A DNA stretch of 64,000 bases from Flavobacteriales bacterium (lineage in GTDB: Bacteria; Bacteroidota; Bacteroidia; Flavobacteriales_E; Vicingaceae), in assembly GCA_029262875.1 (NCBI GenBank), contig JAJCYO010000167.1, positions 1 through 64,000 of the forward strand. Reading direction: 5' to 3'. The notes below the pieces were generated by a model that had not been told where the DNA came from, did not search any database, and was given only the letters and a program-made list of their open reading frames with translations. Positions within the stretch are counted from its first letter, which is position 1; each line of letters starts with the position of its first letter. A program made the translations under genes and the position numbers. Positions 2,514 through 58,992 of the stretch are shown in pieces.

Positions 2514-3023
2514 ATGAAAACTAAAACAGCAGCATCTACAAAAGCAATAATGACAGAAATTGTTTTACCTAATGACACCAATACATTAGGTAATTTAATG
2601 GGGGGAAGACTACTTCATTTAATGGACATTTGTTCTGCGATATCATCACATCGATGTTCAAATAGAATCGTTGTTACGGCTTCTGTAAATAATGTTTCTT
2701 TTGCGCACCCTATTAAGCTGGGAGATATTGTTACCTTAGAATCAAAAGTTACTCGAACATTTAATTCTTCTATGGAAGTTTTTATACAGGTTTTTGTTGA
2801 AAATCACCGAACAGGGGAAAAGACCTTAAGCAACAATGCCTATTATACGTTTGTGGCAGTAGATCAAATAGGGACACCTATTGAAGTACCAGATGTAATT
2901 CCTGAAACAGAAGAGGAAAAAAAGCAACATGAAGGAGCTTTGAGAAGAAGGCAATTGAGCCTAATTTTAGCTGGAAAAATGAATCCTAATGAGGCTACTG
3001 AACTCAAAAAAATATTTGGTTAA
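2514..3023 (+). CDS. Acyl-CoA thioesterase (hotdog fold)
   Basis: This hotdog-fold enzyme hydrolyses acyl-CoA to free acid and CoA in the cytosol. The 169-residue length fits the YciA/BACH-like group. The characteristic helix with 'GNLMGGRLLHLMD' lies at about residues 26-38, followed by the strand region 'VTASVNNVSFAHPIKLGD'. The acidic/basic C-terminal tail ends in EATELKKIFG. The gene follows the M28 peptidase by 13 bases. Its last 33 bases recur at 4533-4565 beyond the FG-GAP gene, with only third-position differences. This suggests that the present 3' end arrived with inserted DNA. Chain-length specificity cannot be read from the sequence. Confidence 0.92.
   Translation: MKTKTAASTKAIMTEIVLPNDTNTLGNLMGGRLLHLMDICSAISSHRCSNRIVVTASVNNVSFAHPIKLGDIVTLESKVTRTFNSSMEVFIQVFVENHRTGEKTLSNNAYYTFVAVDQIGTPIEVPDVIPETEEEKKQHEGALRRRQLSLILAGKMNPNEATELKKIFG
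2991..3023 (+). repeat. Thioesterase 3'-end direct repeat, functional copy
   Basis: These are the last eleven codons of the thioesterase gene, encoding EATELKKIFG and the stop. The stretch matches 4533-4565 at 30 of 33 positions. The three differences (GAG/GAA, ACT/ACA, GGT/GGG) are all synonymous third-position changes. The pair brackets the FG-GAP gene. Confidence 0.85.
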
Positions 3024-3054
3024 ATATCCGAATAGGATATAAAAATAACCGTTT

Positions 3055-3073
3055 ATAAAAGGGATTCCTTTTT
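3055..3073 (+). terminator. Weak terminator-like hairpin after thioesterase
   Basis: An AAAAGG stem (3057-3062), a GATT loop and CCTTTTT (3067-3073) form a short, weak hairpin running into a T-rich stretch. A second perfect 6-bp inverted repeat, ATATCC-GAATA-GGATAT, lies at 3024-3040 just after the stop codon but lacks a T-tract. Both sit in the 90-base gap before the FG-GAP gene. Either could end thioesterase transcription; the call is tentative. Confidence 0.35.
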
Positions 3074-3113
3074 ATTTCTTAAATCCACACCTTTTTAATA
3101 AATTTATAATCCT

Positions 3114-4526
3114 ATGAGGGTATTATTGTTCATATCTCAATTATTTTTAAGTTCGATAGTTATTGCTCAATATAGCCCTCAGCAAATTATTTCGACCAGT
3201 ATAAATGCTCCACTTTCGGTCTATCCAGTTGATATAGATGGTGATGGAGATGAAGATATTCTTTCAGGGTCCGCGGGTAAAATCTCATGGTTTGATAATT
3301 TGGGTAATGGAACTTTTTTACCACACCAAGTTATTGATTCTAATAACTTCAATGTAGTTTCTGTATATGCTCAAGACATTGATGGAGATGGTGATATGGA
3401 CGTATTCTCTGCTTCTGATGCTAACTCTTCCTCTAATGATCCAATAGCATGGTATGAAAATTTAGGAGGTGGAGTTTTTGGCCCTCAACAAATCATTGAC
3501 CCAAATATGAATGTTGCTTTTTTTGTATATGTAGAAGACATTGATGGAGATGGTGATTTTGATGTGATTTCGGCTTCTTCTGATGGACCTATTAGATGGT
3601 ATGAAAACATGGGGAGTAATACATTCAGCCCACCACAAGATATTTATAGTTGGACTGGTTTATGGCGTTTAGGAATTTATTTAAGGGATATTGACAATGA
3701 TGGCGATTTGGATATATTAAGTGAAACTTCTGCACTTACTTCTGATGTGAATTGGTTTGAAAACCTTGGAAATGGAGTTTTTGGAATCGAACAAACCATT
3801 ATCACAGGGAGTATGTCTAACAATCTTGGTATATACCCTATTGATATGGATGGGGATGGCGATATTGATTTAATAGAAAGTACACAAGGTTCTCAAATTG
3901 GTTGGCGAGAAAACTTAGGGAATATGAATTTTGGCAATTGGCAATCAATTGCGATAAATGGGACTGTTGGACACAGTGTTTTTGCGGATGATGTAGATGG
4001 TGATGGTGATGTAGATGTGTTTTCTGCTTATATTAATAGTCCTGCTGTTGGTCTAATTTCATGGTATAGAAACCTTGGCAACAATGTTTTTTCACCTACT
4101 CAAATAATTACTACAGATATTAACTTTTATAAAATGATGCACACATCAGATTTGGATTTAGATGGAGACCAAGATTTAATTTCAGTATCTGCCGGAGATG
4201 ATAAAGTCGCTTGGTATGAATATGATTCTTCCTTTACTGATTCTGTTTTTTTGGAAATAAGTAGTTTTAACAGAACACTTACTGCAAGAGTTACTCCTAA
4301 CCCTTTTAGTGATTATACAGAAATTATACTTGATAACCCATTAAATACGGACTATGGTTTGTCAATATATAATATTTTGGGAGAAGAAGTAAAACGAGTG
4401 AATAAGATAGCAGGAAATAAGATAAGAATTAATAAGACAGATATTGGAAGAGGGTTATTTTTGGCTTATTTGACCAATCTTAATACCGGGGGAAGAATAT
4501 TTATTGAAAAATTAGTAACACATTAA
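3114..4526 (+). CDS. FG-GAP/VCBS repeat secreted protein with T9SS type A tail
   Basis: This is a predicted secreted protein exported by Sec and then the type IX secretion system. A signal peptide occupies about residues 1-19, ending 'SSIVIAQ'. At least seven calcium-loop repeats of the D-x-D-G-D type follow (for example DIDGDGDEDI, DIDNDGDLDI, DVDGDGDVDV), each with a 'WFENLGNG'-like strand. This is typical of an FG-GAP beta-propeller. The last 75 residues form a T9SS type A sorting domain, with 'VTPNPFSDYTEI' and a terminal 'FIEKLVTH'. The binding partner is unknown. The gene is bracketed by two copies of the thioesterase 3' end, which suggests insertion between the thioesterase and the next locus. 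Confidence 0.88.
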   Translation: MRVLLFISQLFLSSIVIAQYSPQQIISTSINAPLSVYPVDIDGDGDEDILSGSAGKISWFDNLGNGTFLPHQVIDSNNFNVVSVYAQDIDGDGDMDVFSASDANSSSNDPIAWYENLGGGVFGPQQIIDPNMNVAFFVYVEDIDGDGDFDVISASSDGPIRWYENMGSNTFSPPQDIYSWTGLWRLGIYLRDIDNDGDLDILSETSALTSDVNWFENLGNGVFGIEQTIITGSMSNNLGIYPIDMDGDGDIDLIESTQGSQIGWRENLGNMNFGNWQSIAINGTVGHSVFADDVDGDGDVDVFSAYINSPAVGLISWYRNLGNNVFSPTQIITTDINFYKMMHTSDLDLDGDQDLISVSAGDDKVAWYEYDSSFTDSVFLEISSFNRTLTARVTPNPFSDYTEIILDNPLNTDYGLSIYNILGEEVKRVNKIAGNKIRINKTDIGRGLFLAYLTNLNTGGRIFIEKLVTH

Positions 4527-4532
4527 GTCAAA

Positions 4533-4565
4533 GAAGCTACAGAACTCAAAAAAATATTTGGGTAA
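4533..4565 (+). pseudogene. Displaced C-terminal remnant of a thioesterase gene
   Basis: These 33 bases encode EATELKKIFG plus a TAA stop, identical in peptide sequence to the end of the thioesterase at 2991-3023. All three base differences are synonymous. It has no start and no upstream reading frame beyond the FG-GAP stop at 4524-4526, so it cannot be translated alone. The simplest reading is that it is the original 3' end of the thioesterase gene, cut off when a segment carrying a replacement 3' end and the FG-GAP gene was inserted. Confidence 0.75.
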
Positions 4566-4571
4566 GGGATA

Positions 4572-4853
4572 TTACAATTTCGGGAAAATTACCGTTAAGA
4601 AAAAAGCAAGAAAAACTACTGAAGTACATGACGTAATGATTGGTATCATTTGTACAGGAGATTTTTGTTCAACCATTTTTTTATAAGATAACCACCCGCT
4701 TCCTCCATACGTAATCATGAAAACCCAATAATAGGACCATGAAACCAAGTTGTTTTGACTCATGTCAAATAAATTGAATAGAGGGCCAATATGAATTGCC
4801 AATAAAATACTGACACCTAACCAAAACGTAAGTTTAAAAAGTTTCAATTCCAT
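4572..4853 (-). CDS. Small membrane protein, three predicted helices
   Basis: This 93-residue hydrophobic protein of unknown function has three likely membrane helices, at about residues 7-27, 36-56 and 68-90. No catalytic motif is visible. The ATG at 4851-4853 follows a short charged stretch (MELKLFK). It lies downstream of the cysQ and DUF2061 genes on the minus strand, 28 bases after the cysQ start-distal end, and may be independently transcribed or read through from upstream minus-strand genes. The sequence is similar in style to small inner-membrane proteins common in Bacteroidota, but I do not recognise a named family. Confidence 0.6.
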   Translation of the reverse strand: MELKLFKLTFWLGVSILLAIHIGPLFNLFDMSQNNLVSWSYYWVFMITYGGSGWLSYKKMVEQKSPVQMIPIITSCTSVVFLAFFLTVIFPKL

Positions 4854-4881: not shown

Positions 4882-5676
4882 TTAATCTCTACTAACTAAA
4901 AACCAAGAGTTTAGTAAATTTTCTTTGTTGTATTCCATTAATTCTTTGGTGTCCCAATTAATTACTTTTGCCCCAGAAGCATTTGCAATGGCTTGACCAG
5001 CAGCGGTATCCCATTCCATTGTTGGAGCAAATCGAGGGTAAGCATCTGCTTTTCCTTCGGCTACCATACACAGTTTTAATGAACTTCCTTTGGAAAGAAT
5101 GTCTACTTCAGAATGGGTACTTTTTTGCTCGTTGATAAAAGCTTCTGTTTCTTCACTCATGTGAGAACGACTCCCTACAACAACATAATTACTTCTTGTT
5201 TGAGCAATCGGCAATTGATCAGCTCTTCCCAATAAATTATTGATAGAGACAGTGGGGTCACTAAACCCTTCAATTTTATAGGCTAATTTGTCAGCAAAAT
5301 ACAGATCTTTGGAAACAGGAACATAAATAACTCCCATTGTGGCTTTTCCATCTTCAATTAAGGCAATGTTAACAGTAAACTCACCATTTCTTTTAACAAA
5401 TTCTTTGGTGCCATCTAAGGGGTCTACCATCCAAAATTGCTTCCAATCTTTTCGTTCGGAGTAGTCCATTTTTTTGCCTTCTTCACTCAATACTGGTAGT
5501 TTTGTTGCTTTTAAAGCATTCATTATAGCAATATGAGCTCTTTTATCTGCTTCAGTTAAAGGTGATTTATCATCTTTCGTTTCTACAACAAAATCCGAAT
5601 TATAAACTTCTAATATTTCTTCGCCACCCTTTAAAGCAGCATTAATGATTTGAATTAACCAATTTTCTCTATTCAT
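4882..5676 (-). CDS. cysQ: 3'(2'),5'-bisphosphate nucleotidase
   Basis: This enzyme hydrolyses 3'-phosphoadenosine 5'-phosphate (PAP) to AMP, clearing the by-product of PAPS-dependent sulfotransfer. It belongs to the lithium-sensitive, magnesium-dependent inositol monophosphatase superfamily. The metal-binding motif DPLDGTKEF is near residues 85-93, an upstream Glu lies in 'LSEEGK', and the second motif 'MEWDTAAG' is near 221-228. The 264-residue length is normal for CysQ. Its start overlaps the end of the upstream DUF2061 gene by 8 bases, indicating one transcript. cysC, which makes PAPS, lies nearby at 9341 but is separated by the deoC operon. Confidence 0.93.
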   Translation of the reverse strand: MNRENWLIQIINAALKGGEEILEVYNSDFVVETKDDKSPLTEADKRAHIAIMNALKATKLPVLSEEGKKMDYSERKDWKQFWMVDPLDGTKEFVKRNGEFTVNIALIEDGKATMGVIYVPVSKDLYFADKLAYKIEGFSDPTVSINNLLGRADQLPIAQTRSNYVVVGSRSHMSEETEAFINEQKSTHSEVDILSKGSSLKLCMVAEGKADAYPRFAPTMEWDTAAGQAIANASGAKVINWDTKELMEYNKENLLNSWFLVSRD

Positions 5677-56310: not shown

Positions 56311-57966
56311 ATGAAAAACCTAATTATTATAATAGTTTTATTTTTACCATTCGTTGTTAATGGGCAGAATTTAGTGCCTAATAGTTCTTTTGAAATGGGA
56401 TTCCCAGGTTATCCTAATAATATCAGTCAACTACCTTTGGCCATCCCTTGGAAAAATTTTGGATCATCTGATTGGTACTCTAATGCAGGTTCACTTTTCT
56501 TAGGTTATTATGATATAACGGGGGCAACATCTGGTGCTTACGATACAAACCCTTTAGCACCACCACCTCTACCTATACAAACACCACACACAGGGAATAA
56601 ATTTATTGGTTTTGGGCCTTGCGAAGGAGCTCAAGTCAAATTAACGAGTAAAATTGAGAAAGATGAGTACGTAACAGTTTCTTTTTGGTGGAGCCCTAGA
56701 ACTAAAAATGATACGGAAATTAATATTTATCTATTAGAAGATGCTGCTCCTATTAATGCCCTGTCCAATTGTTATAGCCCAAATATAAGTTATGAATTTA
56801 CATCTAAAGTTGTGGTTAACTCATCTGGATCAGATGCAGTTCACATACCAGGCGAATGGTATTTTTATACTTCAGAAACGTTTTTATTAAAAAAGGATAT
56901 AGAATACGAATGGATCGCCATAAAAGGGAGTAATGTGCCTGGAAGCTGGCCGGACCCTCAATATATTTACGTGGATGATATTACCGTAACATCTACTCCA
57001 GAGTGTAGTCATATCTGCTCAAATAAATTGGGGCCAGTAGGGTTTCAACAGATTATGAACCAACCCAACGTTTTAGCTAATGCGATGATAGGTAATTCTG
57101 GACAAAATTGGTTTATGCTCGTAGAAAATGCAACAAAAATTGATTTTGAAGTTTTCAGTAATGCTAGCGGAAAATTTTTTGAATACCATGCTTATGACCC
57201 TAATGGCTTAAAAGATCCTGGTTTTCCTGATTATGCCTTTGAATGGAATGGAGAGAATGATAATGGAAATGCTGTTCCTCAAGGAATCTATAGTTTCAAT
57301 ATAAACATTGAAAATTGTACCTCTCAGATACAGCATATTGCCCAACCGTTATTCATTATTCCTGCAAATAACGGCAATCCAATTCCTAACCCTCCAACTC
57401 AAAACAATATAATTGAGAATTGCTGTAAACCATTTGCGATTTTCAATAATATTGTGTCCCCTCCGATTTTTAGGGAAGATGTTGATGATTTTATAATTGT
57501 TGGAGCTGGAGCCCCAACAATTATTCCCCCAACAGCGAGTGTAAAATTGTATGCTGGTAATTCAATAAAATTTGGAGTTGGGTTTTTGGCTCTTGGTAAT
57601 CTTGAGGCAAAAATAGTTCCGTGTGGAACATTTGGATACAAAAGCTCATTAAGAGATAGGGAGTTAATCTCGCAATCACAGATGGACAGTTTGTTTAAGG
57701 AAGAGTTAACCCAGGTGAAAAATAATAACGGGGGGCTGGTTTTTTTATACCCTAACCCCAACAACGGTCAATTCAATGTAGAGCTTGAAAACAATGATGG
57801 AGATGCACTAATCGAAGTGTATGATCTAATGGGTAAAAAAGTATTTTCAGAACACAACACGACTGGACAACTTGTGGTGAACATAGAAGACCAACCCAAA
57901 GGCATTTACTTGGTTAAAATAACGATTGACGATGAAGTGTTTAATGAGAAGATTGTTTATCAATAA
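56311..57966 (+). CDS. Secreted protein with T9SS type A sorting tail
   Basis: This 551-residue secreted protein begins with the signal 'IIIIVLFLPFVVNGQ'. The mature N-terminus 'NLVPNSSFEMG' is a common flavobacterial opening for a carbohydrate-binding-like or OmpA-associated secreted protein. Residues about 240-340 show a gliding-protein-like 'YAFEWNGENDNGNAVPQGIYSF' segment, resembling FlgD/CHU_C-like Ig domains. The C-terminal 80 residues, 'YPNPNNGQFNVELENNDGDAL' onward in part, are a T9SS type A domain almost duplicated in the next gene. It lies 2 bases after the fibre-like gene. Confidence 0.85.
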   Translation: MKNLIIIIVLFLPFVVNGQNLVPNSSFEMGFPGYPNNISQLPLAIPWKNFGSSDWYSNAGSLFLGYYDITGATSGAYDTNPLAPPPLPIQTPHTGNKFIGFGPCEGAQVKLTSKIEKDEYVTVSFWWSPRTKNDTEINIYLLEDAAPINALSNCYSPNISYEFTSKVVVNSSGSDAVHIPGEWYFYTSETFLLKKDIEYEWIAIKGSNVPGSWPDPQYIYVDDITVTSTPECSHICSNKLGPVGFQQIMNQPNVLANAMIGNSGQNWFMLVENATKIDFEVFSNASGKFFEYHAYDPNGLKDPGFPDYAFEWNGENDNGNAVPQGIYSFNINIENCTSQIQHIAQPLFIIPANNGNPIPNPPTQNNIIENCCKPFAIFNNIVSPPIFREDVDDFIIVGAGAPTIIPPTASVKLYAGNSIKFGVGFLALGNLEAKIVPCGTFGYKSSLRDRELISQSQMDSLFKEELTQVKNNNGGLVFLYPNPNNGQFNVELENNDGDALIEVYDLMGKKVFSEHNTTGQLVVNIEDQPKGIYLVKITIDDEVFNEKIVYQ

Positions 57967-57978
57967 AACTATAAAGCC

Positions 57979-58992
57979 ATGAAAAAACAGCTATTAATTT
58001 TATTAAGTGTATTGTTCGCGAGCTTTACCTTACAAGCGCAATGTGATTTTTATGATGATTATTCCTCCCAATCAGGATGGACGCAAATTGGAACGGATGT
58101 TCAAGTAAGCAACGGTAAAGTAGAATTTCTAAATGGAGCAAAAGGTGGCGAAGGATCTTTAGGGGAAGGACAAAAAAGAGTTTACAAGAACACGGGATTA
58201 ACGTTTAATTCGAATGACAGTTGGGTGGCTCAATTTGAATTTACGCCAACATCTGTGGGAACAACTATGGGGCAACCATGGACGGGACATACCTTATTTG
58301 CTTTAACTGCAGGAACACAAGAACCGTTTAATAATTGTACTAATTTAGCCTGTTCAGGGTTTCCAAATGGAAATCAAGATGGAGTTATTGTGATGTATGG
58401 AGCAGATAACCCACCAACTGGTAATATTTGGTTTAAAATTAAGGCAAGAGATAATTCCTTGGAATATACTTCATCAGCGATAAATGCAAACACTATGGGG
58501 GTAACTTATTATCCTTCGTTGGAGCGATTATCTGGAACCAATGTTCAGTTAAGTGTCTTTTCCGATGCGGCAAGAACGGTTCATATAGCAGGCTCTCCAG
58601 TTAGTTTAACTATACCTATTACTCTTACGGGATTAACTACGGTGCAACATGGGAATGTTGTAAGAGGAAATTATCAGCGAGAGTTAAATGGAACGATCGA
58701 TAGTTTGTGCATTAACCTTAATCCATCCATCGGGATTTTTAGCTTAGAATCAATCAAAAACCCTATCAATTTATATCCCAATCCAAACAATGGTCAATTT
58801 AGCATGGCGTTAGAAAACAGTGATGGAGATGCGCTAATCGAGGTGTATGATCTGATGGGTAAAAAAGTGTTTACAGAACGCAACACAACTGGGCAACTTG
58901 TGGTGAATATTGAAGACCAACCCAAAGGCATTTATTTTGTAAAAGTTACCATTGGTAATGAGGTTTTCAGTGAAAAGGTTGTTTATCAATAA
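57979..58992 (+). CDS. Secreted protein with T9SS type A sorting tail, paralogous C-terminus
   Basis: This 337-residue protein has a signal peptide ending 'FTLQAQ'. Its N-terminal domain of about 240 residues starts 'CDFYDDYSSQSGWTQIG' and resembles concanavalin/LamG-like lectin folds in pattern, not confirmed. The T9SS tail (about 262-337) contains 'YPNPNNGQFSMALENSDGD', 'EVYDLMGKKVFTERNTTGQL' and 'IEDQPKGIYFVKV', almost the same as in the gene before. A terminator follows at 59018-59052, ending the secreted-protein run that begins at 54500. Confidence 0.85.
   Translation: MKKQLLILLSVLFASFTLQAQCDFYDDYSSQSGWTQIGTDVQVSNGKVEFLNGAKGGEGSLGEGQKRVYKNTGLTFNSNDSWVAQFEFTPTSVGTTMGQPWTGHTLFALTAGTQEPFNNCTNLACSGFPNGNQDGVIVMYGADNPPTGNIWFKIKARDNSLEYTSSAINANTMGVTYYPSLERLSGTNVQLSVFSDAARTVHIAGSPVSLTIPITLTGLTTVQHGNVVRGNYQRELNGTIDSLCINLNPSIGIFSLESIKNPINLYPNPNNGQFSMALENSDGDALIEVYDLMGKKVFTERNTTGQLVVNIEDQPKGIYFVKVTIGNEVFSEKVVYQ

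Follow-up and report, generated by a model that had tools for sequence, protein, structure and literature searches.

The locus lies in a Flavobacteriales bacterium (GenBank assembly GCA_029262875.1) on the contig JAJCYO010000167.1, of which positions 1 to 64,000 were analysed; this whole stretch of 64,000 nucleotides is called the window, and all positions refer to it. A thioesterase gene is followed there by a gene for an FG-GAP repeat protein, and just beyond this second gene the end of the thioesterase gene appears once more. The features are as follows.

2514-3023, plus strand: acyl-CoA thioesterase gene (4HBT hotdog, YciA-like), 169 aa, intact (Pfam 4HBT, 3.1e-15)
2988-3023, plus strand: copy 1, the functional 3' end of the thioesterase gene (sequence comparison, genome pattern search)
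3024-3075, plus strand: two RNA hairpins predicted beyond the end of the thioesterase gene, ATATCC/GGATAT and then an AAAAGG-type stem with T-rich DNA behind it (fold z -2.24)
3042-3060, plus strand: post-stop block, proposed continuation of the repeat, matching 4585-4603 (block match statistics)
3114-4526, plus strand: FG-GAP cargo gene, 470 aa, with a signal-like N-terminus and a T9SS type A sorting domain (Pfam, TIGR04183)
4530-4565, plus strand: copy 2, apparently a displaced thioesterase 3' end with no gene attached (sequence comparison, genome pattern search)
4572-4853, minus strand: 93-aa hydrophobic ORF, a second cargo piece or an ORFan (no relative in 395 class genomes)
4585-4603, plus strand: post-stop block matching 3042-3060, inside the last codons of the 93-aa ORF (block match statistics)
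4882-5676, minus strand: cysQ, 3'(2'),5'-bisphosphate nucleotidase, bounding the variable spot on the right (TIGR01331, 8e-80, above the cut-off)

The thioesterase matched the YciA model at 9e-19, which is under the cut-off of that model, and is 93% identical in the closest member of the genus. The FG-GAP protein contains FG-GAP_3 in seven stretches (6.5e-46, Pfam). At its C-terminus, Por_Secre_tail scored 27.7 bits against a cut-off of 27 and TIGR04183 22.9 bits against a cut-off of 23. With both Pfam models over their cut-offs, the repeats and the C-terminal sorting domain point to a T9SS-secreted protein, as the sequence-only reading of this DNA had predicted. The protein has paralogues in its own genome, the best being 39-52% identical; long ones were seen on the contigs C142, C23 and C154, with open frames of 1445, 1251, 1196 and 424 aa. 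When the cargo was used to search for a donor, the FG-GAP protein found distant paralogues only and the 93-aa ORF gave 0 matches in the 395 class genomes. These two are the only ORFs of at least 60 aa between the thioesterase gene and cysQ.

On the left side, the gene order is thymidine kinase (tk), a 185-aa protein, M28-type peptidase and thioesterase, where we take the first and the third to be what their names say from reading the sequence. On the right side, cysQ is accompanied by a gene for a DUF2061 protein (Pfam) and then by two genes that, again by reading, presumably encode aldehyde dehydrogenase-like (ALDH) proteins. The DUF2061 gene is single in the source genome and present as two tandem diverged copies beside cysQ in the relatives G003, G005 and G007 (loci L037, L040 and L041). 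The hairpins predicted at 3024-3075 are a possible terminator; a terminator pattern scan made no call there.

The 33 nt that close the thioesterase gene (2991-3023, GAGGCTACTGAACTCAAAAAAATATTTGGTTAA) recur about 1.5 kb downstream, just beyond the FG-GAP gene, at 4533-4565 (GAAGCTACAGAACTCAAAAAAATATTTGGGTAA), with 30/33 positions matching. The three differences, GAG/GAA, ACT/ACA and GGT/GGG, are all silent third-position changes, and each copy encodes EATELKKIFG and a stop codon. Copy 1 has the form GAGGCTACT...GGTTAA and copy 2 the form GAAGCTACAGAACTC...GGGTAA; the longest run identical in both is the 20-nt sequence GAACTCAAAAAAATATTTGG. The match extends 3 nt upstream (AAT/AAA), giving 32/36 over 2988-3023 and 4530-4565. 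The recurrence and the silent differences had been reported from the letters alone, and both are borne out: the duplicated thioesterase end is a real observation. On the left, copy 2 breaks off sharply at 4530, and over the 110 nt that precede each copy the alignment is no better than for shuffled sequences. A longer thioesterase pseudogene remnant 5' of copy 2 was ruled out, since no upstream similarity is present, and folding gave no support (z 0.45) for an RNA hairpin or terminator formed by copy 2. Copy 2 shares its reading frame with the stop codon of the FG-GAP gene (4524-4526), for which the chance is one in three.

The rarity of the repeat was analysed with a degenerate pattern that covers every synonymous form of the peptide EATELKKIFG plus stop, and with the reversed sequence as a control. 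In the 3.94-Mb genome the pattern occurred at two sites only, copy 1 and copy 2, and the control at none. This rules out a widespread 33-nt motif, which the sequence-only reading had named as an objection to its own proposal, and, as to the search that it had suggested for the same bases beside other single-gene insertions, the genome has no further site. For each further locus tested, its own thioesterase tail was matched at 17-23/33 at best in the gap or downstream region. We also scanned 276 ORF tails in 343 kb of the source genome, and 543 kb of relatives. In the 343 kb, copy 1 and copy 2 had the top score and were the sole isolated pair. The other matches of at least 26 were paralogous domain ends, where the upstream 100 nt are 66-84% alike, whereas upstream of copies 1 and 2 they are only 25% alike. 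In the relatives, the few matches of at least 26 lay inside the end of the ORF itself or immediately next to it. No further isolated gene-end copy around inserted genes was found in the 0.34 Mb of the source genome and the 0.54 Mb of relatives. Low complexity was ruled out by the pattern search, the background matches and the tail scan. A tail pair at 57934 and 58960 (27/33) was rejected as a T9SS sorting domain common to two neighbouring genes. These secreted-protein genes at 56311-58992 share a C-terminal sorting domain that is almost a duplicate (84/100 nt in front of the 27/33 tail), which suggests domain copying or conversion between neighbours.

The similarity probably runs past the stop codon. 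The blocks 3042-3060 and 4585-4603 match at 16/19 positions, at offsets of +18 and +19, i.e. with a 1-nt shift. A score at this level was reached on those diagonals by 0.02% of random window pairs and by 1 of 1596 pairs of post-stop stretches, figures that are indicative because the test was picked after the similarity had already been seen. The stretch 3042-3060 was also checked as a decayed end of the 93-aa ORF, and the frame there has a stop. Since the blocks match, the homologous unit is probably about 73 nt long (2988-3060 and 4530-4603) and not 33, and since the similarity probably continues beyond the stop codon, the repeat would be a gene end with its flank rather than a coding coincidence.

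In the relatives, the thioesterase mostly ends with DATELKKLF or DATELKALF and then a single residue that varies. E, CTC, ATA (Ile) and GGx (Gly) occur together in both copies, a combination that is absent in all relatives examined. Because they match each other at 30/33 and any relative at 27/33 at most, both tails come from this species or a sister, and any donor would be a conspecific or sister strain and not a distant genus. Of the possible substitutions in the tail, 21/99 are silent. Three silent changes out of three have a probability of about 0.01-0.014 if both copies drifted and of about 0.04-0.06 if copy 2 alone did. The earlier claim that copy 2 evolved as coding sequence while diverging is thus moderately supported, being favoured and not proven. 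Comparison with outgroups suggests that copy 2 is where at least one of the changes, GGT to GGG, took place. The set of silent variants in copy 2, which had been expected in relatives, was carried by none of them.

The closest records of the genus are Flavobacteriales metagenome-assembled genomes, one of them named Vicingus serpentipes. In two relatives, G003 and G005, the thioesterase gene and cysQ are convergent direct neighbours, with 0-15 nt from the thioesterase stop to the matched end of cysQ, in agreement with the earlier view of the FG-GAP gene as an insertion. In others the gap is filled by other genes and measures 5.9 kb in G001, 5.5 kb in G002, 3.35 kb in G007, 10.2 kb in G011 and 1.94 kb in the record L081, compared with 1.86 kb in the source genome (3024-4881). 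The same two core genes therefore enclose a variable gene-insertion spot in this genus, and the FG-GAP gene, together with the 93-aa ORFan, is its cargo. The filled loci are L033, L036, L041, L046 and L081. G001 and G002 share a big insert with a helix-turn-helix-like regulator and a very large secreted-looking protein, and by eye their large cargo proteins have similar-looking tails. Both cargo proteins of L081 have T9SS sorting domains. This contig (JAESUN010000292.1) is labelled Opitutaceae bacterium and is probably mis-binned, because it carries the M28-thioesterase-cysQ-ALDH locus of the genus. In G011, two versions of the tk-M28-thioesterase locus on separate contigs (L046 and L047) suggest mixed strains in the bin or a duplication. 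Neither a second thioesterase tail nor an exact empty site was found in any relative examined. The arrangement that had been anticipated, a thioesterase gene followed directly by the sequence from 4566 onward, did not turn up in relatives, because the next ORF (4572-4853) is unique to the source genome.

Copy 2 behaves as the displaced thioesterase end that it had been taken for, and for its origin we lean, by a modest degree, towards an allele exchange between close strains with a homologous joint on one side and an illegitimate joint, or a passage through a circle, on the other. Two close strains would have held different cargo at this spot: parent A the thioesterase with tail 1 and then the FG-GAP gene, and parent B the thioesterase with tail 2 and then the 93-aa ORF and cysQ. 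A strand of one would have entered the other, for instance by natural transformation, and recombined homologously in the shared flank. Its other end, the end of the FG-GAP gene, would have been joined illegitimately to the recipient thioesterase about 12 codons before the end of that gene, at a joint that we place at 4527-4533. The route would be homology-facilitated illegitimate recombination (HFIR), or an equivalent single crossover with a circle. The product would have the thioesterase with a new 3' end, the FG-GAP gene, the old 3' end as a scar, the 93-aa ORF and cysQ. Under this proposal the thioesterase is intact because a complete end arrived with the incoming DNA, and the differences are silent because both tails were functional gene ends until they met.

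The exchange is supported by the adjacency of the two neighbours in G003 and G005, the variable cargo elsewhere, the states shared by the two tails, the silent changes, the similarity after the stop and the lack of an integrase on the contig. Models of this type have been put forward for displaced rhs tips (PMC2935791) and orphan T6SS immunity genes (PMC5361080). The sharp left boundary of copy 2 is in keeping with an illegitimate joint. DprA and a ComEC-type protein are encoded in the genome; both are widespread, and they are compatible with DNA uptake and do not show it. Against the exchange, neither parent arrangement was found among the 13 other genomes of the genus and the wider sampling: no genome has the FG-GAP gene beside the thioesterase without copy 2, and none has the thioesterase followed by the 93-aa ORF. 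These missing parents say little, because the sampling is one genome per species. Against it also stand the small number of substitutions, which is only three, with the silent pattern alone rejecting in-situ drift at about the 5% level, and the flanking genes. On both sides the nearest relatives of these genes vary little and show no clear change, at one genome sampled per species, although none would be expected if the donor was conspecific. In experiments, HFIR is also rare (discussed in PMC5361080).

The strongest competitor, which we regard as unlikely and still worth serious attention, needs one genome only. Here the FG-GAP gene would have been inserted at the junction of the thioesterase and the 93-aa ORF by repair or template switching, with a duplication of a target of about 73 nt, and the copies would then have drifted, the silence being luck. 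The repeat does span the stop codon, its divergence is similar in the coding block (3/33) and the downstream block (3/19), and, as the outgroups suggest, at least GGT to GGG belongs to copy 2. However, with one constrained copy the three silent changes keep their low probability of about 0.04-0.06, and the 18 nt between the blocks are barely alignable, for which separate lineages are a better fit than recent drift.

Improbable in our judgement is a site-specific integration in which the 20-nt identical core served as the att site of a tyrosine recombinase that acted in trans or has since been lost, the element carrying a substitute thioesterase end. Such an event would give the layout of e14 in icd, with a duplicated 3' end and a restored frame (PMC6379469), and 12 integrase-domain matches exist elsewhere in the source genome. 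Yet the integrase domain PF00589 had no match on the contig, no relative has a second tail at the spot, no comparable case appeared in the approximately 0.9 Mb scanned, and the similarity continues beyond the putative core in both directions. An assembly artefact, with reads of two co-occurring strains merged into a chimeric contig, is very unlikely because the longest identical run of 20 nt is below usual assembly overlaps; moreover, the joint between the FG-GAP gene and copy 2 at 4527-4533 is not in a repeat, so that reads should have spanned it. The assembly does consist of 173 contigs, and the genus is known mostly from metagenome bins. The mini-cassette of the sequence-only reading is not supported in its site-specific form, since the contig has no recombinase, the scans revealed no second case and the relatives hold unrelated cargo without a tail duplication; a small integrase-less cassette that delivers single genes for T9SS-secreted proteins to convergent core gene ends, with a synonymous substitute for the host 3' end, seems very unlikely. 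Chance similarity or an unrelated short motif is practically negligible, with 30/33 against a background of 17-23/33, two sites in 3.94 Mb and the result of the tail scan.

Taken together, the locus looks like a scar left where a variable spot acquired a gene. The event is of a known, ordinary kind, though unusual in its clarity and small size, and it needs no new mechanism. The scar can still be read: two gene ends that differ only synonymously stand on either side of a single cargo gene, the spot has no mobile elements, and the lineage abounds in type IX-secreted proteins. Synonymous tail pairs around cargo can be searched for systematically, which would give the rate at which accessory genes enter by allele exchange as compared with integrases.

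Of the known systems, prophage e14 in the icd gene of E. coli is a site-specific integration with a displaced end of 163 bp (PMC6379469). In both cases a metabolic gene regains its 3' end from the insert, beyond which the displaced end is found; in contrast, the insert here is 1.5 kb long with one gene, the end measures 33-73 nt, no recombinase is encoded on the contig, and neither the att site nor the element recurs in the DNA scanned, with two sites in the own genome and no second tail in relatives. In the rhs tips, C-terminal displacement leaves the old tip dissociated, and circular intermediates have been proposed (PMC2935791). There, too, an end gained laterally takes the place of the resident one, whose tip persists as a fragment, but rhs tips are variable C-termini, whereas here the same peptide stands at both ends and the cargo is a separate gene. 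HFIR has been reported for conjugation in E. coli (PMC3240628) and inferred for the T6SS effector-immunity arrays of Vibrio cholerae with their displaced orphan immunity genes (PMC5361080). The likeness is in the new gene beside a conserved anchor and in the old 3' part of the recipient, which is kept and shifted downstream; the displaced piece here, however, is 11 codons of a housekeeping gene with no evident function. Finally, hotspots of gene turnover without mobile elements arise by recombination at flanking core genes (PMC5635113). They resemble this spot in having variable cargo between two conserved core genes and no integrase, but double homologous recombination would leave no duplicated end, whereas this locus has kept the scar of its junction.
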